A DNA stretch of 36,729 nt from a virus. The notes beneath the pieces were generated by a model. The model had not been told where the DNA came from. It was given only the letters and a program-made list of their open reading frames with translations, and made no database searches. Where the stretch lies: positions 1 to 36,729 of IMG/VR virus record IMGVR_UViG_3300031521_000196; one strand, 5' to 3'. The position numbers were made by a program, and so were the translations under genes. Below are positions 4,304 to 35,950 of this stretch, one piece after another. Positions within the stretch are counted from its first letter, which is position 1. Every line of letters starts with the position of its first letter.

Positions 4304-5017
4304 TTATTCTTCATATTTCAATAAGAATAAATTTGATATAGTTTTGAAGGATATTCTATTATTTGAATCGTTAGACACCCAAACTAAACCTTCACGATTA
4401 ATGTTTTCATTTAATTGTGATTTACCATCAGCAATTAATATCAATTCTTCAATTGTATTAGGTAAAATATAATCTAAAAAAACAGTCGGTGCAATTTCAA
4501 GACTTAAAATGTTACACAATTCTATCATTTCTTTCTTTGATAAATATTCATATTTATCAATATCAAAAATGTTATAAACTCGCAACTGCTGTCCTTTTAG
4601 TTTATATTTATTAGATTTAATACCTTCTCCAATAATTTCACCTTGTATAGCTAAATTTCTACCATGGTTTCTTAATTTAGCTTCAATGTTATATGATAAT
4701 GCAATTCTACCAACAAGATTATTACTATCTACTAACATTTGTAAGTTTCTTGAGCAAACACCGAATTCGTTATCATATAAAAAATATGTTGAACTTTCAC
4801 CGTCTAACTTTTCAGATGCATAGAATCTTAATTTTTTATATGATTCATATTCAGATGTCAAATTTTGTATACGTTCTTCATCAGTTTTTTGTATAAAAGA
4901 TGGAAAATTACCAATAGCCAAACCTTCTAATTCTGCAGCAAGTGGCGGATCATATTTAGTTACATTTAAAATATCAGTAACATCTACACCATGTTCAAGG
5001 ATTAATTCTTTTTTCAT
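4304..5017 (-). CDS. RNA ligase, catalytic (nucleotidyltransferase) fragment of a split Rnl5/DraRnl-type ligase
   Basis: 237 residues holding the adenylyltransferase domain of an RNA ligase of the Deinococcus DRB0094 (Rnl5) type. The nucleophile is K70 in SEKLDGESS (motif I, KxDG). Motif IIIa/IV-like segments follow (RNLAIQGEIIGEG; EGLVWV), and motif V is ISFKTISNLFLLK at the C-terminus. The opening part (DVTDILNVTKYDPP, then NFPSFIQKTDEERIQN) is the part that normally follows the N-terminal OB-like domain. Here that N-terminal domain is a separate gene at 5975-6337, with an endonuclease gene between. The fragment has its own ATG behind an A/T-rich leader, so it is probably expressed as a separate polypeptide. 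Confidence 0.9.
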   Translation of the reverse strand: MKKELILEHGVDVTDILNVTKYDPPLAAELEGLAIGNFPSFIQKTDEERIQNLTSEYESYKKLRFYASEKLDGESSTYFLYDNEFGVCSRNLQMLVDSNNLVGRIALSYNIEAKLRNHGRNLAIQGEIIGEGIKSNKYKLKGQQLRVYNIFDIDKYEYLSKKEMIELCNILSLEIAPTVFLDYILPNTIEELILIADGKSQLNENINREGLVWVSNDSNNRISFKTISNLFLLKYEE

Positions 5018-5927
5018 ATTTTTTTAATAAATAATTTAAAAAATCATTTTCTTTATCGTCTCTTTTTAATTGTTGAATATTTAATATTCCTTGTTCTCTA
5101 AGCCATTGCCTAATTTTATATTCACTTTTATTTATATTATTTGATATGTTTTTTAGATTAGAACATTTTATTAAATTTGTTAAAATAAATATTATTTCAT
5201 CATTGTCAACACTATTCACATAGTTCGGATTTTTTTCTCCTAACCATTTATGTCTAAATTTTTGCTTCAATTCAATTGATTTTTCTATACCGTATAATTC
5301 CTCATATGTTTTACCACTTCTAAATAATGATAGTCTATTTTTAACTTCATCTGATTGATTTTTACCTAAAAATGGATGCGTATTATTTTTCCAATCGTGT
5401 TTTGGAGGTTTGTGTCCACTTTTTTTGTGAGATTCGCTAATTTTTTGTTTTATATTATCAGATTCATCACCGTATCTTTCTTCATAAGTTACACCACTCC
5501 ATCTATTTCTTAATTTCAAGGAAATATTTTGATATATTTCAATTTTCATTATATCGGCTTGTTCTTTACCATATTTTTCTACCCACCAATCATAAGGCGA
5601 TTTGCCATAATAGTATTTTCCAGTATTCCCACCATCACCACCGATTGTCATATTATAACCAAAATCTTTATTATTTGAATTATATTCAGATATATAATAA
5701 ATTTCTATGTTATTTGCATCATTATTTGAGTTTACACAGTCTAAAATCTCTATTTTAAAATTATCAACACCATATTTATTCATACTATCGTATAAATATC
5801 TATTTATTCTATTTTTTGAATTTTTGACATGTTCTGAAAATCTTTTTTCTATAGTTTTTGATGTTTTACCAATATAAACTTTATTATTTGTTATGTTTGT
5901 TATTTTATAAATCTTATATATATTCAT
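4995..5927 (-). CDS. GIY-YIG homing endonuclease inserted in the RNA ligase gene
   Basis: 310 residues. The N-terminal GIY-YIG domain is clear: KIYKITNITNNKVYIGKT carries both signature strands, followed by the catalytic Arg region (EKRFSEHVKN) and a Glu-containing helix (NIEIYYISEYN). The middle has repeated segments of the type (TYEERYGDESDNIKQKISESHK; TYEELYGIEKSIELKQKF) plus HPFLGK and WLGEKNPNY, like the NUMOD-type DNA-binding modules of phage endonucleases. The C-terminus (residues about 250-300) looks like a helix-turn-helix (NISNNINKSEYKIRQWLREQG). It overlaps the start of the catalytic ligase fragment by 23 bases and so splits a once single gene. Confidence 0.92.
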   Translation of the reverse strand: MNIYKIYKITNITNNKVYIGKTSKTIEKRFSEHVKNSKNRINRYLYDSMNKYGVDNFKIEILDCVNSNNDANNIEIYYISEYNSNNKDFGYNMTIGGDGGNTGKYYYGKSPYDWWVEKYGKEQADIMKIEIYQNISLKLRNRWSGVTYEERYGDESDNIKQKISESHKKSGHKPPKHDWKNNTHPFLGKNQSDEVKNRLSLFRSGKTYEELYGIEKSIELKQKFRHKWLGEKNPNYVNSVDNDEIIFILTNLIKCSNLKNISNNINKSEYKIRQWLREQGILNIQQLKRDDKENDFLNYLLKKYEKRINP

Positions 5928-5946
5928 AGTCTAATAGTTTTTATAC

Positions 5947-5956
5947 TATATATAAA
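5947..5956 (-). promoter_or_regulatory. Phage-type promoter motif before the endonuclease gene
   Basis: TTTATATATA on the minus strand, 19 bases upstream of the ATG at 5927. It matches the element found before many other leading genes in the window. Confidence 0.5.
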
Positions 5957-5974
5957 ATTTATAAAATGTAAAAA

Positions 5975-6337
5975 TTAAAATATTAAAGTTTTTTTACCAC
6001 ATTTTTCTATAATTTTACCACCTGATACGGTTTCTAAAAATGATAATGGCATAATTAAACCACAAGAATATACACCTAGTAATTTTATTATTTTTAATCT
6101 GAATCCTTCTGAACCGTCTGCTAATTTTTTATATGATGTTTTTCTTAAAAATTCAAATTCTTCACGTATTGGCAAAAATGAATCAACTTCAAAATATACA
6201 ACATTGTCACCTATTTTAAATTCGTCTTTTTTTACCACAACATTCCAATTATCAACTGTTGCGACTTCAATCATATCTGCACCTACTATTGGTCTGATAT
6301 TTGATATTGTACGAATGCTTGCAAGTTTTCTTATCAT
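5975..6337 (-). CDS. RNA ligase, N-terminal OB-like domain fragment
   Basis: 120 residues. Residues 1-102 (MIRKLASIRTISNIRPIVGA, then DNWNVVVKKDEFKIGDNVVYFEVDSFLP and GLIMPLSFLE) match the N-terminal module of Rnl5-family RNA ligases, which is fused to the catalytic domain in intact enzymes. After LE the protein ends in about 18 unrelated residues, presumably created by the insertion at about position 6032. In DraRnl the N-terminal module is known to be needed for sealing but not for self-adenylation, so a separately made subunit could still work in trans. It is the first gene of the split locus. Confidence 0.88.
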   Translation of the reverse strand: MIRKLASIRTISNIRPIVGADMIEVATVDNWNVVVKKDEFKIGDNVVYFEVDSFLPIREEFEFLRKTSYKKLADGSEGFRLKIIKLLGVYSCGLIMPLSFLETVSGGKIIEKCGKKTLIF

Positions 6338-8674: not shown

Positions 8675-9586
8675 ATGAAGAAACCTAATGGATATTGGAC
8701 ATATGAAAGGTGTAAGGATGCGGCATTAACTTGCAATAGTACATCAGAATTGCAAAATAAGTATAATACAGTATATGTTAAAATATTAAAAAATAAATGG
8801 AATTTTTTATTTGATCATATGGAAAATATAAAATCAACTAAGGGATATTGGACATACGACAAATGTAAAGACGAAGCTTTAAAATATAAATATAGATCAG
8901 AGTTTGATAAAAAATGTCCATCTGCTTATAGAAAAGTATTAAAAAACAAATGGTTAGAATTGTTTGATCACTTTGAAAGAATTGGAAATAAAAGAAAAAG
9001 ACTTATATATGTTTATGAGTTTACTGATAATTTTTTCTATGTTGGATTGACGTGTAATATGAAAAGAAGAAACAATCAACATTTTGGTATAGAAAAAAGT
9101 AAAGATAGCTCTGTTCATAAACATATTTTAAAAACTAATACTTTACCAAAATTATTAATAAAGACAGATTATGTTGATGTTTATGATGCAATATTATTAG
9201 AAGAAAAAATATTAAATGAATATAAAAATAATGGCTGGAACACATTAAATGAAGTGAAAACTGGTGGAGTAGGATCAAATAATATTAAATGGACTGCGGA
9301 TAGATGTAGAGAAGAATCTTTAAGATATGATAACATATCAGATTTTATGATGAAATCCAAAAGTGCATATAATTCAAGTATGAAATATGGATTAATAGAT
9401 GAGTTTTTCATAAGAAAAAAATCAATTAATAATTATTGGAACAATCAAGAATTATGTAGAGAAGAATCTAAAAACTATAATACTCGTAGTGAATTTTGTC
9501 AAAATAATTGGTCGGCATATAATCACTCTTCTATTAATGGATGGCTAGATGAGTTTTTTCCAAAAAATAAAAAACGTGGTGAATAA
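8675..9586 (+). CDS. GIY-YIG homing endonuclease with four flanking DNA-binding-like repeats
   Basis: 303 residues. The central nuclease domain (about 108-195) has the GIY-YIG-type strands RLIYVYEFTDNFFYVGLT, the Arg region MKRRNNQHF and the catalytic Glu helix AILLEEKILNEY. Two copies of a repeat of about 38 residues lie before it (GYWTYERCKDAALTCNSTSE and GYWTYDKCKDEALKYKYRSE) and two after it (KWTADRCREESLRYDNISDF; YWNNQELCREESKNYNTRSE), each ending in an AY..........W/F.(F/L)F pattern. These repeats are likely DNA-recognition modules wrapped around the nuclease. It follows a small RHH gene and ends in a bidirectional terminator whose loop holds its stop codon. Confidence 0.88.
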   Translation: MKKPNGYWTYERCKDAALTCNSTSELQNKYNTVYVKILKNKWNFLFDHMENIKSTKGYWTYDKCKDEALKYKYRSEFDKKCPSAYRKVLKNKWLELFDHFERIGNKRKRLIYVYEFTDNFFYVGLTCNMKRRNNQHFGIEKSKDSSVHKHILKTNTLPKLLIKTDYVDVYDAILLEEKILNEYKNNGWNTLNEVKTGGVGSNNIKWTADRCREESLRYDNISDFMMKSKSAYNSSMKYGLIDEFFIRKKSINNYWNNQELCREESKNYNTRSEFCQNNWSAYNHSSINGWLDEFFPKNKKRGE

Positions 9587-9608: not shown

Positions 9609-11486
9609 TTAACTTAAAAATTCTTCTAAGTCTTCTACACTTAACAATTTAACTCCTAGTTCTTGAGCTTTAATCGCCTTACTTGATAAAGAATTTGTCT
9701 CTGTCATAACTAAATATGTCAAATTCTTTGATACACCTGATAAAACTTTTCCTGATCTAGATTCTATCACTTCTTCTAAATCTTTTCGTCTTATTCCAGT
9801 AAAACAAAAAGATACGTTTTCTAAATCATTTTTTAACATAATATTTTTTTCTTTTTTTTCTTCAATAGTTATTTTTGTCATATCACTTAACCAATTGTAA
9901 AATTCATCATATCCTTCAAGATATGCATTTGCGGAAATATCAGAGAATCCTTCAATTTTAAGTATTTCTTCAAATGTTGGTTTACCTTCAAAATGCATTA
10001 ACAAATCTATTTTTTTTGAACCAAGATTTTTAAATATGCTTGTCGCATGCATCAATTTTGACAATTTGACATTTGTAACAGATTTATGAATAGAGTCATA
10101 AACAATTTCTGCTTTTCTACTTGCAAATTTTTGAAGTTTACTAAAATCTGAAACAGAAATATTCAATATATCTTTAATTGTTTTATATCCAGAATTATAT
10201 AATTGATTTATAATACCTTCTGATACGTTTTCAGCACCAAGAATTTCGAAAAATGAAATTATTTTTTTTATTTCTTGCTCTTCTGTTCCTTCTACAATTA
10301 ATTCTACACCAGTTTCGTTCCAAAAAACTTTTGAGCTTCCAAAATTTGGCATTTCAAATCCAGTCGCTTCAACGATTGAAACTATTTTTGGTATAACACC
10401 ACCGCTGCGAATAATTTTTATTTTAGATCCAACACCTAAATTATTATCTTTTACAAACTTGTAGTTATTTAAAGTTACTCTTGAAATTGTTGCGCCATCT
10501 AAATCAACAGGTAAAATTATAGCAACAGGTTTTAAATAGCCTTGTTTAGAAACTTCTTTTATGATTTCAAGTATAGTAGTATCTGCGGCTTCAAACCACT
10601 CAGGATTTTTAAAAGCTCTGGCATATGCTGGATTGTTGTTTCTTTCACGACCTAAACTCTTTCTGATATTTTTATCATCAATATCAAATACTAGTCCATC
10701 AATATCATATTCTTTACCCCATTCTAAAAAAAGTTCATTTAGCATATCAATATCTAATTCACTAGCTTTTAAAATTTTATAAGGAATTGGTGACAATTTT
10801 TCACATATCAAATTTATCTGTTCAGATTTATTTAACATAAAATCTTCATTAGCAAAACCATAACGAATATGTTTAGCATATTTTAAGTCCTCAGATACAG
10901 TATCTGAGTTTTTAAGTCCAGCAATCATATTACGTGCATTCTTGAATGGTTCACCGTTATCTCTATAAAAAGTACGTGACGCAAATATTGGTTTCGGTAT
11001 AATCATTTCGCCAATAGTATATAAATCTATTTTCTCGTAATTATCATTTAACTTTTTATAATGAGTGTGAACTGTTTCGCCATCAATACCATCACCTCTT
11101 GACCATGCAAGTTGTTCATATTCATCTTTTAAAATAGATATACCATCATATTTTGAAGTGATAGCTAATAGTGTGGTTAAAGGTAATTTTTTATTTTTGA
11201 GCCATTTGTGAATAGCTGCGATTTCAGTTTCTTTATCCAAAGAGAACATTGGATATTTTAGTTTTTCTTTTCTATCAGAATCTACTTCTACAGATTCAAT
11301 AACACCAGAATTGAAAAGCTCATTTGTGGAATTTTTTAATTTTAAGTATTCTATAAGATTATCGTACTCTGGATCAGATATTTCTGTTTCGCCTATACGA
11401 TATTTATAATTTAGTTTTTTAATTTCAATGGTCGCAGTTTTAAAATCGCCATTATCTATAAGATTATAAATTTCTGATAACTTCAT
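9609..11486 (-). CDS. ligA: NAD-dependent DNA ligase lacking zinc-finger cysteines
   Basis: A 625-residue LigA-type ligase that seals nicked DNA using NAD+. The order is: domain Ia (about 1-70, with YRIGETEISDPEYDNLIEYL for NAD binding), adenylation domain with K112 in TSKYDGIS (KxDG), the DIDGLVFDI motif near 262, an OB fold (about 305-375, VGSKIKIIRSGGVIPKI), the place of the zinc finger (about 379-405), helix-hairpin-helix repeats (about 412-545), and a C-terminal BRCT domain (about 555-625, NVSFCFTGIRRKDLEEVI). Normal LigA has four Cys in the zinc finger; here none remains (MPNFGSSKV...EGTEEQE). The length is slightly below the usual 670. A terminator-promoter junction lies upstream. Confidence 0.95.
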   Translation of the reverse strand: MKLSEIYNLIDNGDFKTATIEIKKLNYKYRIGETEISDPEYDNLIEYLKLKNSTNELFNSGVIESVEVDSDRKEKLKYPMFSLDKETEIAAIHKWLKNKKLPLTTLLAITSKYDGISILKDEYEQLAWSRGDGIDGETVHTHYKKLNDNYEKIDLYTIGEMIIPKPIFASRTFYRDNGEPFKNARNMIAGLKNSDTVSEDLKYAKHIRYGFANEDFMLNKSEQINLICEKLSPIPYKILKASELDIDMLNELFLEWGKEYDIDGLVFDIDDKNIRKSLGRERNNNPAYARAFKNPEWFEAADTTILEIIKEVSKQGYLKPVAIILPVDLDGATISRVTLNNYKFVKDNNLGVGSKIKIIRSGGVIPKIVSIVEATGFEMPNFGSSKVFWNETGVELIVEGTEEQEIKKIISFFEILGAENVSEGIINQLYNSGYKTIKDILNISVSDFSKLQKFASRKAEIVYDSIHKSVTNVKLSKLMHATSIFKNLGSKKIDLLMHFEGKPTFEEILKIEGFSDISANAYLEGYDEFYNWLSDMTKITIEEKKEKNIMLKNDLENVSFCFTGIRRKDLEEVIESRSGKVLSGVSKNLTYLVMTETNSLSSKAIKAQELGVKLLSVEDLEEFLS

Positions 11487-22609: not shown

Positions 22610-23011
22610 AAACTTTTTCAATCGTTTAATATCTTCTCGCAATTTTTCATCGTAAAACTTAATTAAAAAATCAATATCACTATCTTTTATTTGATAATAT
22701 TCTTTTATTAATTTTAAATCATTATTATTAAAATCAGACTTAATTTTAACTTTAGATTTTTGATTTGTTTTCCACCACCAATCTGGTGTACCATTTGTTG
22801 GTTTATAAAAAATTTGAAACCATAAATCTAAAGCCGATGATCTGTTTACATTTTTAAAATTAAAAAATTGTGCTTTTTTTATATCTTTAAATGCAAATTT
22901 TTGATTCAACTTAAAGAAACAATTTTCTTTTTCTTCATCTGAAACATATTTATATTTGTCTTTATCCTTAAATATAATATTAGCGAGTGTTATAAAATCT
23001 ACTTTTGCCAT
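22586..23011 (-). CDS. Hypothetical protein, possibly clamp-loader-small-subunit-like, 141 aa
   Basis: 141 residues, helical and basic. The pattern CFFKLNQKFAFKDIKKAQFFNF, then NVNRSSALDLWFQIFYK and PDWWWK recalls the small helical clamp-loader subunit (gp62-like) of T4-related phages, where an 'N..' helix and a conserved DLW precede an aromatic-Pro/Trp segment; I recall this only loosely. The C-terminus is a Lys-rich helix (DIKRLKKFKKETPLK). It overlaps the end of the histidine kinase gene by 13 bases, so it is expressed with it. Treat the clamp-loader idea as low confidence. Confidence 0.55.
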   Translation of the reverse strand: MAKVDFITLANIIFKDKDKYKYVSDEEKENCFFKLNQKFAFKDIKKAQFFNFKNVNRSSALDLWFQIFYKPTNGTPDWWWKTNQKSKVKIKSDFNNNDLKLIKEYYQIKDSDIDFLIKFYDEKLREDIKRLKKFKKETPLK

Positions 23012-24957
23012 ATATCTTTTAATATTGTTATTAATTTGTCCTTTTTTATTGGTTTTTTTAAATGATAATCAACCAAATCACTTTTTTGATTATCTATACC
23101 TGATTTAGAAATAATTTTACAATCATCACAAACCATTTTTAATGTTCGTATTAAATCATAGCTTTTTATTCCAAATAAGTTTAAATCTACTATTATTAGA
23201 TCTATTTTTTCTTTTTGTTTTTTATATATTTCAATAGCTTCATCGCCGCCATTCGCTGTAATCATATTAATATTCATAGAATTTAAATATATACCTAATA
23301 TTGAATATGTTACTGGGATATCATCTATTACTAAAATTGTCTTTTCTGAAAAATCAACATCATCTGCTTCAACATTTTTAACAACTTCCTCTATTGGTAA
23401 TTTAACATAAAATGATGTACCTCTATGTAATTTTGATCTTAACCAAATTTCACCATTCAATATTTCAACAATACTTTTAGATATTGACAAACCCAATCCA
23501 GTACCTTTATATTTCTTTCTACTACCACTATCTGCTTGCCAAAATCTATCAAATACATATTTTATTTTATCATCTTCAATTCCAATTCCAGTATCTTCAA
23601 TTTTAAATGTTATATAATTATTATCTAATGTATAAGATATTTTAATATAACCTTTCTCTGTAAATTTAATAGAGTTACTAATTATATTATATAAAACTTG
23701 TTTCACTCTTAAATAGTCAGATACAATTTTAGTATCATCACCTTTTATAAATTCCATTTTTACGAAATTTAAATTTTTACCATAATTAACTTCATTAAAT
23801 ATATCATGCAATTCGTCAAATAAATCTAAAATTGAAAATTGTTCATAAAGAATATCCAATGCCTCACTTTCTATTTTAGAATAATCTAATATGTTGTTTA
23901 GTAATTCATCTAAGTGTTTTGCATTTGAATTTATTGATTTTATAAATCTTTCAGATCCTTTGTTTTTATTATTTGATAATAATATATCAGAAAATCCAAT
24001 GATTGCTGTCATTGGTGTTCTCAATTCATGCGAAATATTTGATAAAAATATAGATTTTATTGAATTGCTTTTTTCCAATGCATCTTCATTCTCTTTTTGT
24101 ATTGTTATATCTTGAAGTACACCAAACACAATTTTATTTTTACTATCGTAACTTGCGACAGAATGTATAGTTTTGATTTTATTATTTATTTTAATTTTAT
24201 ATTCTACATTATAATGTTTATTATATTCAATCAAATTTTTCATTGCATCATCCATCATTGGTCTAAACTCAGATAACACTACAACTTTAACATTCGGATA
24301 AGTTATAATATCATCATACATCTCATATATCTTTCTCGCACCATCAGATACTATTAATAAATCAGTGTCAACATACAATTCCCAATTTCCTGTTTTTGAT
24401 ATTATTTCAGCTCTAGCTAATCTGTTTTCTGATTTTATCAACTCATCAGAACGTTTACCCTTTTCTTCGTTAGCAATAATCAACTCATCAGAACGTTTAC
24501 ACTTTTCTTCGTTAGCAATAATCAACTCATCAGAACGTTTACCCTTTTCTTCATTTTGAAAAGTTAATTCATGTTCTAAATTCTTGTGAATATTTATTCT
24601 ATCTGTAATGTTAGTAAATATTGCTATAAATTCAATATCATCCCAATATGCAAGACTAACACCAAAATATTTATTTATATTATTATGATAAAATTCAAAA
24701 TATTTTGAATTTTTATTTAAAACTACATCAGAATATATATCTAATGATAATACATCACCATATAACTCTGATGCTAGTTTACCTTCAGCATAATCTTTTG
24801 TGTAACCTAATATCATTTCAAATCCTTTATTAACTTTTAAAACAATATAGTCAATTGGATTACCACTATCATCAAATACCATTTGATGAATTGCAACACC
24901 TTCTAATATGTTAGAAAGTAGATTGTCAAAATATGAATTATTTTGTGAATTTGACAT
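22999..24957 (-). CDS. Soluble hybrid histidine kinase with PAS domains and receiver
   Basis: 652 residues. Order: PAS domain (about 10-120), a coiled-coil linker with three 14-residue repeats (135-174), a second PAS-like domain (about 180-290), HisKA with the phospho-accepting H310 in SNISHELRTPM, HATPase with N box NIISNSIKFT, G1 DTGIGI, F box YVFDRFW and G2 GTGLGLSI, then a receiver (about 540-652) with acidic pair VIDD, acceptor D591 in IVDLNL and conserved K635 in LKKP. All catalytic motifs look intact. No transmembrane segment, so it would sense an intracellular signal. The linker resembles those of Bacteroidetes kinases. No separate response regulator is seen nearby. Complete sensor kinases are very rare in phages. 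Confidence 0.93.
   Translation of the reverse strand: MSNSQNNSYFDNLLSNILEGVAIHQMVFDDSGNPIDYIVLKVNKGFEMILGYTKDYAEGKLASELYGDVLSLDIYSDVVLNKNSKYFEFYHNNINKYFGVSLAYWDDIEFIAIFTNITDRINIHKNLEHELTFQNEEKGKRSDELIIANEEKCKRSDELIIANEEKGKRSDELIKSENRLARAEIISKTGNWELYVDTDLLIVSDGARKIYEMYDDIITYPNVKVVVLSEFRPMMDDAMKNLIEYNKHYNVEYKIKINNKIKTIHSVASYDSKNKIVFGVLQDITIQKENEDALEKSNSIKSIFLSNISHELRTPMTAIIGFSDILLSNNKNKGSERFIKSINSNAKHLDELLNNILDYSKIESEALDILYEQFSILDLFDELHDIFNEVNYGKNLNFVKMEFIKGDDTKIVSDYLRVKQVLYNIISNSIKFTEKGYIKISYTLDNNYITFKIEDTGIGIEDDKIKYVFDRFWQADSGSRKKYKGTGLGLSISKSIVEILNGEIWLRSKLHRGTSFYVKLPIEEVVKNVEADDVDFSEKTILVIDDIPVTYSILGIYLNSMNINMITANGGDEAIEIYKKQKEKIDLIIVDLNLFGIKSYDLIRTLKMVCDDCKIISKSGIDNQKSDLVDYHLKKPIKKDKLITILKDIWQK
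24436..24555 (-). repeat. 42-bp tandem repeat in the histidine kinase linker
   Basis: Almost three copies of a 42-base unit encoding NEEKGKRSDELIIA (second copy C for G). Near identity at the DNA level implies recent expansion. The register of 14 residues (two heptads) extends the signalling coiled coil without changing its phase. Confidence 0.9.
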
Positions 24958-30664: not shown

Positions 30665-31399
30665 TTATAAAAGAGTATTATTTTTTGACTGTTTATTGTG
30701 TGATATTAAACCATTAACAATGTATGTGTGAGCATCTTCAATTTCTATACACATAACAGTACCCATACCAATATCTAATATTTCAGTTATTTCTTTATTT
30801 CCGTTTAATGTTTTAATTTTTGAACCTATTGATAAATCTGAAACAGCAACATATTCATCATTTTCAGTTAAAAACTTATGAGATTCTGAAACTGTAACAT
30901 ATTCAAAATTAAATGAAACTTTAATAATTTGTTGTGCTATTTTTTCTAATTTCTTAATTTTGAAATAATCTAATTTTTTTGTTTTTTCGTGTATAGTATA
31001 TACATTTTGTCCAACCATTAAATCATCTACTCTCATTTCTCTTTTTGGTGATATTTTAATATTCATATCAAGTGTTGGACAACCTATAATTGGTTTTACT
31101 GTTGTATCAGTTGTTGTAACTATAACAGAATCAACAGACACCGTAGTATTAGTATCAACAGTTGTTGTTTCTTGATATGTAATCAAATTTTCACCATATC
31201 TTTTTATTGGCAAAATATCCATTTTTTGAATATATGGGCTATTCAAAAGTTCTCTATATTGAGCCTCAGAAATTTCTGTAGCTAAAATTACATTATCTCT
31301 AACAAAAACAACGGTTCCACCACTTTTGATAATACTATCTTTTAAAGGTCCAACATAAGTTAGATCACTAAATAATACTGTTTGTGTCAATTGTGTCAT
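30665..31399 (-). CDS. Virion-module protein with a C-terminal Hint (intein-like) domain
   Basis: 244 residues. Residues 1-75 match the start of the neighbour at 31419-32519 (both have an ILATEIS/IIASEIS strand, an SGGT/QGGT turn and LPIKRYG/LPLKQFG). A Thr/Val-rich linker follows. From C107 to N235 (129 residues) is a Hint domain: CPTLDMNIKI (block A, N-terminal Cys), VTVSESHKFLT (block B-like) and CIEIEDAHTYIVNGLISHN (blocks F-G). The residue after HN is Lys, not Cys/Ser/Thr, so ordinary protein splicing is impossible. This fits a bacterial intein-like (BIL, type A-like) domain that may cleave off its 9-residue tail or rearrange. No homing endonuclease is inside. Confidence 0.8.
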   Translation of the reverse strand: MTQLTQTVLFSDLTYVGPLKDSIIKSGGTVVFVRDNVILATEISEAQYRELLNSPYIQKMDILPIKRYGENLITYQETTTVDTNTTVSVDSVIVTTTDTTVKPIIGCPTLDMNIKISPKREMRVDDLMVGQNVYTIHEKTKKLDYFKIKKLEKIAQQIIKVSFNFEYVTVSESHKFLTENDEYVAVSDLSIGSKIKTLNGNKEITEILDIGMGTVMCIEIEDAHTYIVNGLISHNKQSKNNTLL

Positions 31400-35197: not shown

Positions 35198-35950
35198 ATG
35201 AGAACAACAACATTTATTTACGCACTAAAGGATCCTACAACAAATGAAATAAGATATATTGGAAAAGCAAATGATCCACATGTTAGATATAAAAATCATA
35301 TAAATAAATGTAGAGATAAGAATACGCATAAAAGAAATTGGATTAACAAATTAAGAGAAGAAAAATTGAAACCAATACTTGAGATATTAGAAGAAGTTCC
35401 AATTAGTAGATGGATAGAATTTGAAAAAATCTATATTAAAAAATATTTAAATGATGGTTGTGATTTGTTAAATTATACTGATGGTGGTGATGGTGCAACA
35501 TTTGCAAATAGTGGTTCTTTTAAAAAAGGAAATGGTGCTAGAAGAGTTGTGATGCTAGACAAAGATGGTAATTATATTAAAACTTTTGATAAAATAATGG
35601 ATGTTGATACTGAATTTGAATCTAAATGTGTGATTCATGTTTTACAGAAAAGCAGAAAAACATTTAAAGGATATTTATTTTTATATGATGATGAATATAA
35701 AAACATGACAAATAATGATATTAATACACATGTGAAATGGTCAAAACCAAAAATATTAACAGCAAATAAAACATCATATAAAGAAGTTGAAATATATCAA
35801 TATGATTTAAATATGAATTTTATAAAAAAATGGAAATCATTAGCTGAAGCATCAAAAACATTAAAAATAAATAAAGCAGCAATTTGCAGATGTGCTAAAG
35901 AAAAATCTAAAAAATCTGGTGGATTTATTTGGAGATACAATAAAAAATAA
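35198..35950 (+). CDS. GIY-YIG homing endonuclease with NUMOD1-like modules
   Basis: 250 residues. The GIY-YIG domain (about 1-95) has TFIYALKDPTTNEIRYIGKA, the Arg-bearing helix DPHVRYKNHINK, and a Glu-containing helix (RWIEFEKIYIKKYL). Two NUMOD1-like modules follow: one around residues 122-165 (VVMLDKDGNYIKTFDKIMDV, VIHVLQKSRKTFKGYLFLY) and one around 197-248 (VEIYQYDLNMNFIKKWKSLAEA...INKAAICRCAKEK...GGFIWRY). These help choose the target site. Lies between two unrelated genes; no split gene is evident around it, so it looks like a free-standing mobile gene. Confidence 0.92.
   Translation: MRTTTFIYALKDPTTNEIRYIGKANDPHVRYKNHINKCRDKNTHKRNWINKLREEKLKPILEILEEVPISRWIEFEKIYIKKYLNDGCDLLNYTDGGDGATFANSGSFKKGNGARRVVMLDKDGNYIKTFDKIMDVDTEFESKCVIHVLQKSRKTFKGYLFLYDDEYKNMTNNDINTHVKWSKPKILTANKTSYKEVEIYQYDLNMNFIKKWKSLAEASKTLKINKAAICRCAKEKSKKSGGFIWRYNKK

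Follow-up and report, generated by a model that had tools for sequence, protein, structure and literature searches.

A GIY-YIG homing endonuclease lineage recurrently found between the two halves of a split Rnl5-type RNA ligase gene in phages

The closest described system is the nrdA gene of Aeromonas phage Aeh1, which is split by mobE ('genes-in-pieces') and whose reductase was reported to be functional as two chains (PMC2988022). The same source also describes endonuclease genes associated with other split phage enzyme genes, namely mobA with gene 60 of phage T4 and seg43 with gene 43 of Aeromonas phage 25, and split reductase genes are listed in an analysis of 128 phage genomes (PMC3653736). 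At the locus described here, as in Aeh1, the coding region of an enzyme is divided in two by a free-standing endonuclease. A preliminary description of this DNA had drawn this parallel, and it is upheld: one gene has become two genes around an endonuclease gene, and unsplit relatives exist. The Aeh1 case, as described in that source, involves an HNH endonuclease, a reductase and one transposition-like event, whereas a GIY-YIG endonuclease, a ligase and one lineage recurring at one linker in many phages are found here. The endonuclease of phage 25 is of the Seg type (GIY-YIG), as in our locus; gene 60 and gene 43 encode other enzymes, and whether the phage 25 endonuclease caused the split is treated as uncertain in the relevant passage (PMC2988022). 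Descriptions of genes in pieces have mostly concerned single cases, whereas here many phages have one and the same enzyme interrupted, at one linker, by members of a single endonuclease lineage. In split-intein fractured genes, reportedly described by Dassa in 2009, the host gene likewise falls into two parts that flank an endonuclease gene; such genes contain inteins, whereas the type studied here has none and its chains would remain separate. The open-licence literature searched yielded no description of a split RNA ligase. Gene splitting by an endonuclease is already known, and what seems to be new is a recurrent, apparently site-dedicated cassette with coding tails.

The window, i.e., the whole stretch of DNA analyzed, is a virus record of 36,729 bases. 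ORF calls and domain searches bore out the three genes, all on the minus strand, together with the 23-base overlap between the endonuclease gene and the C half, the positions given in the preliminary description and the domains that had been assigned there. The N half (5975-6337, 120 aa, with its own stop) is the OB domain of an Rnl5-type RNA ligase (PF21189, E 3.5e-34), with NgrRnl as its best solved fold. It is followed after only 47 bases by a free-standing GIY-YIG homing endonuclease gene (4995-5927, 310 aa), whose catalytic domain was confirmed by PF01541 (E 4.4e-11) and by conserved residues in A5, and which is placed by the lineage tree given below. The C half (4304-5017, 237 aa) is the nucleotidyltransferase (NTase) domain of the ligase (PF09414, E 1.2e-19) and contains the KLDG, EGLV and SFKTIS motifs, the first of which agrees with the catalytic-lysine motif KxDG of Rnl5. 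Both halves match one phage family, phrog_968 (398 columns in total), the N half over columns 8-111 and the C half over columns 124-393. Jointly they have the OB plus nucleotidyltransferase architecture of Rnl5, as judged by Pfam, by the NgrRnl alignment of an intact sister and by the N-half fold; the single polypeptide of an Rnl5-type ligase is replaced by two ORFs with a third gene between them. The N + GIY-YIG + C region of the window covers one Rnl5/NgrRnl-type RNA ligase. The break in homology had been placed at the domain border, and comparison with fused relatives agrees, as N-half homology ends at about residue 98-114 and C-half homology begins at about residue 2-11, mostly 10-11.

Three smaller features flank the endonuclease gene on the same strand. 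The N-tail (5975-6034) comprises residues 102-120 and the stop, with a predicted beta-hairpin (108-112/115-119). A 17-base spacer motif, TATAGTATAAAAACTAT, lies at 5934-5950, shortly before the endonuclease start. The C-head (4991-5017) consists of a new start codon and the first nine codons of the C half, with 23 bases inside the endonuclease gene, and nine matching codons are found in the apparently imported block of locus L238 described below.

To assess recurrence, a starting scan with the endonucleases of the window and of L011 as queries was followed by three further scans and by a profile survey of 264 loci listed. Among these loci, 105 have a ligase half, comprising 85 fused and 20 split records. 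The split records include duplicates and the window, and one (L103) is an intein case. Before counting, L001 was merged with the window, L010, L012, L108 and L109 with L011, L015 with the similar L014, and L136 with L024, which lies on the same contig. This left at least 13 distinct GIY-split elements including that of the window; the other elements, at least 12, lie on other contigs in the same N/GIY-YIG/C order. Because the split arrangement recurs on independent contigs, it is neither a chance arrangement nor an assembly artefact. The closest endonuclease relatives among the matches listed have an OB half on one side and an NTase half on the other. Endonuclease-based scans favour split loci by design, and the N-domain scan is a fairer sample: among its 80 loci listed, 74 are fused, five are GIY-split records (three elements) and one is intein-split. 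By contig binning, L238 was assigned to Cloacimonadota and L239 to Flavobacteriaceae. When four of the 13 endonucleases (those of the window, L014, L178 and L171) were compared with 50,697 phage records from cultured phages, no match covering 80% of the query was obtained.

Uninterrupted genes, which the preliminary description had suggested seeking in relatives, were found in L002, L157 and L147, so the two fragments are not a conserved pair for which a fused form is absent. The fused sister of the window, L002, is syntenic with it and encodes one intact ligase ORF of 336 aa, and its ligase neighbours (small ORFs and a ClpP-like ORF) match the order in the window, also at the nucleotide level. 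This intact protein aligns over residues 3-334 with the solved Naegleria RNA ligase NgrRnl (5cot, E 3e-69), which shares the OB + NTase layout of the window ligase. NgrRnl and DraRnl are single chains, whereas the window ligase is encoded by two genes. L002 is not a very close sister (69/101 residues identical in the N half and 152/228 in the C half), unlike L157, the fused sister of the split L238. The latter two share 92% identity over the 376 bases that end at base 417, and similarity resumes at base 1508 with 81% over 1,629 bases, extending past the gene; between these points L238 has 1,090 bases where L157 has 87. Over codons 1-80 the two differ at 16/240 bases and at no amino acid, whereas over codons 81-102 they differ at 9/22 amino acids and 32/66 bases (Fisher p 8e-14 on bases), and the C half from codon 10 is again conserved (212/227 residues identical, 93%). 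The block in L238 seems to consist of about 22 donor-like OB codons, the N-tail with its stop, the spacer, the endonuclease gene, and a start with nine codons. Judged from the sequences of the two genes, this pattern would be the signature of homing with co-conversion. In a second pair, about 1,040 bases in the split L011 replace 29 in the fused L147, and the difference near the site rises only mildly (5/20 residues over codons 81-100). The unsplit sister with 93% identity in the best pair makes the origin, spread and tolerance of the fission directly testable.

We consider it likely that a GIY-YIG homing endonuclease dedicated to the OB/NTase linker of Rnl5-type phage ligase genes invaded the window gene and thereby turned it into two separately translated genes. 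The endonuclease would cut an intact allele at this linker, and repair with a split donor as template (homing) would bring in the whole cassette, i.e., part of the OB end, the N-tail with its stop, the spacer, the endonuclease gene, and the new start with the short C-head. Cleavage would thereby drive the spread of the cassette, and the two chains would assemble, perhaps via their tails, into an active ligase. We infer a mobile 'fission cassette' together with a two-chain ligase.

It is also possible, and we suggest it only tentatively, that the fission cassette is self-contained, in that its imported tails (a 5' beta-hairpin with stop, and a 3' strand with start) would let any invaded Rnl5 ligase work immediately as two chains. 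If so, homing genes would have a third way, alongside introns and inteins, of residing inside a useful gene. The N-tails of the window, L011, L238 and L162 are alike over 19 residues, and none of 20,000 shuffles equalled this agreement, which demonstrates similarity and leaves its cause aside; fused sisters have no such tail. In the AlphaFold2 model of the window N half (mean pLDDT 93), the tail forms the predicted hairpin, whereas residues 101-110 of the fused L002 are modelled as coil. By eye, a longer N-tail is present in 9/13 elements and absent from L016, L017, L024 and L171, and since four of the 13 elements lack a long tail, N-tails are not required everywhere. Differences in the 19-codon tail at codon positions 1, 2 and 3 amount to 57, 40 and 67 of 114 each, and its dN/dS, defined for four of the six pairs, lies below 1 in each of these; with so few codons, this pattern is not decisive on protein-level selection. 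The 16-base core of the spacer was found in eight of the 264 loci among the matches listed, every one of them split and of the window's cassette type. If imported tails do rejoin the halves, mobile elements would supply protein-assembly parts, and the tails would be candidate enzyme-splitting tools. An RNA hairpin before the endonuclease was considered as a general regulator and rejected; it is significant in L011, L162 and L014 and not significant in the window, L238 and L016.

Because the same type of element split the same gene in many viruses while both halves stayed intact, the ligase probably works as two chains. Alternatively, the halves might act apart, with the C half ligating alone and the OB half being free or otherwise employed. 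The domains of DraRnl are said to have separable roles, and its NTase domain reportedly seals pre-adenylylated nicks without the N module, which would favour this alternative. However, comparison of L016 with L017, both of which were already split, shows purifying selection acting on each half: dN is 0.066 and dS 0.737 for the N half (dN/dS 0.09), and dN is 0.138 and dS 0.740 for the C half (dN/dS 0.19). The N half is thus as strongly conserved as the C half, and it stays adjacent to it in 13/13 elements. We therefore regard separate action of the halves as improbable, although less so than the alternatives that follow.

The history of the split was addressed by comparing endonuclease and host-gene trees. 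The 13 GIY-YIGs found inside ligase genes cluster together in the endonuclease tree, joined by just two long-branch outsiders (support 87); eight of the 13 had gone into the profile that retrieved the others. The ligase tree mixes split and fused genes, with window/L002, L011/L147 and L238/L157 as sister pairs. This first tree, which also provided the branch lengths given below, contained long branches, and 14 rows, two of them GIY-split (L171 and L239), were omitted from a 58-row ligase tree. In the latter, six changes between split and fused are forced by well-supported branches. There is one endonuclease lineage, and its host genes do not form one clade, a pattern consistent with horizontal spread. 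A single ancient split inherited by descent, with the fused sisters arising by re-fusion or replacement, would be in line with an all-split clade of six members (L013, L014, L016, L017, L178 and L185), and parsimony gives the number of changes and not their direction. Against it, one clade for the 11 split ligase rows was rejected in the 58-row tree (p-AU 5.4e-40, weakened in that the grouping was named after the first tree had been seen), as was one clade for the four ligases with the window's cassette type (p-AU 1.7e-5, likewise weakened by a grouping chosen post hoc). For re-fusion, several lineages would each have had to lose about 1 kb, and the sharp difference between L238 and L157 at codons 81-102, next to the 80 codons without amino-acid change, fits import into an intact gene. 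A single ancient split is accordingly quite unlikely.

Slightly less probable still is a split ligase that is dead or dying, its halves being remnants of a broken gene. In its favour, motif I is altered in two C halves: that of L024 (2291-3013, plus strand) has KLNG instead of KLDG, by which catalysis is possibly altered or lost, and that of L171 has KIHG and no match to motif V. The KxDG, EGxV and SFKxI[SN] motifs nevertheless occur together in 11/13 C halves, and no internal stops were found within either half of the 13 elements. In the three sister pairs, branch lengths of split and fused genes are 0.46/0.43, 0.15/0.22 and 0.052/0.089, so split branches are not consistently longer, and the low dN/dS values of L016 and L017 were likewise obtained between genes already split.

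It is also very unlikely that the endonuclease resides in a self-splicing intron whose removal from the mRNA would yield one normal ligase chain. GIY-YIG endonucleases often reside in phage group I introns, and the insertion site lies within an otherwise continuous gene, both of which would suit an intron. I-TevI and I-TevII, for example, are listed as intron-encoded in PMC2988022. However, searches of the 13 split loci with E limits of 5 or 1 matched no intron family of Rfam, which holds known families only and could miss an unusual ribozyme (chance-level matches of the window to other families near E 0.02-5 were disregarded). A group I intron core around the endonuclease ORF was specifically sought and rejected, with no match in these 13 loci. 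The short gap between N half and endonuclease gene argues against an intron as well, as does the overlap with the C half, which reaches 53 bases in L185. In L016, L017 and L239, unrelated ORFs lie between the endonuclease gene and the C half, and in L016 and L017 this interval has a 12/12 match to the sigma-70 promoter consensus, a candidate promoter by consensus match alone. The window endonuclease lies outside any known intron or intein according to Rfam, Pfam searches of the halves, and the gene overlap, and its earlier description as free-standing and not intronic stands. The small ORFs in this interval of L016 (4897-5154) and L017 (2264-2521), both on the plus strand, are of unknown family and differ from each other, with identical last few residues.

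Post-translational joining of the halves through a split intein, the route taken in Dassa-type fractured genes, can practically be dismissed: the related ligase of L103 appears to be split in this way, but Pfam revealed no intein domain in the window halves, and the N-tail of 19 residues and the C-head of nine are too short for the C part of an intein. A split intein was sought on both window fragments and rejected, and weak intein halves were seen in L103 only.

Locus L103 (3986-6433, plus strand) itself encodes an Rnl5-type ligase with an apparent split intein inside the NTase domain, and its halves are separated by an ORF for a possible Vsr-like endonuclease; its intein and Vsr matches are weak, falling under the Pfam curated cut-offs. 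It resembles the Dassa fractured genes and is an apparent natural split-intein counterpart within the same ligase family. In three other loci, a related GIY-YIG gene lies immediately upstream of an unsplit ligase (L192, 559-2563; L240, 4103-5981; L177, 3920-5996; all on the plus strand); it overlaps the ligase gene in L192 and L240 and is in pieces in L177.

Elsewhere in the window, two more GIY-YIG endonuclease genes were observed at 8675-9586 and 35198-35950 (plus strand). A minus-strand ORF at 30665-31399 ends in a stretch similar to an intein splicing domain (PF14890, E 2.7e-4, under the cut-off), with no catalytic C/S/T evident after HN. The minus strand also encodes an NAD-dependent DNA ligase with a BRCT domain (9609-11486) and, although this is a virus record, a hybrid histidine kinase with PAS, HisKA, HATPase and response-regulator domains (22999-24957).
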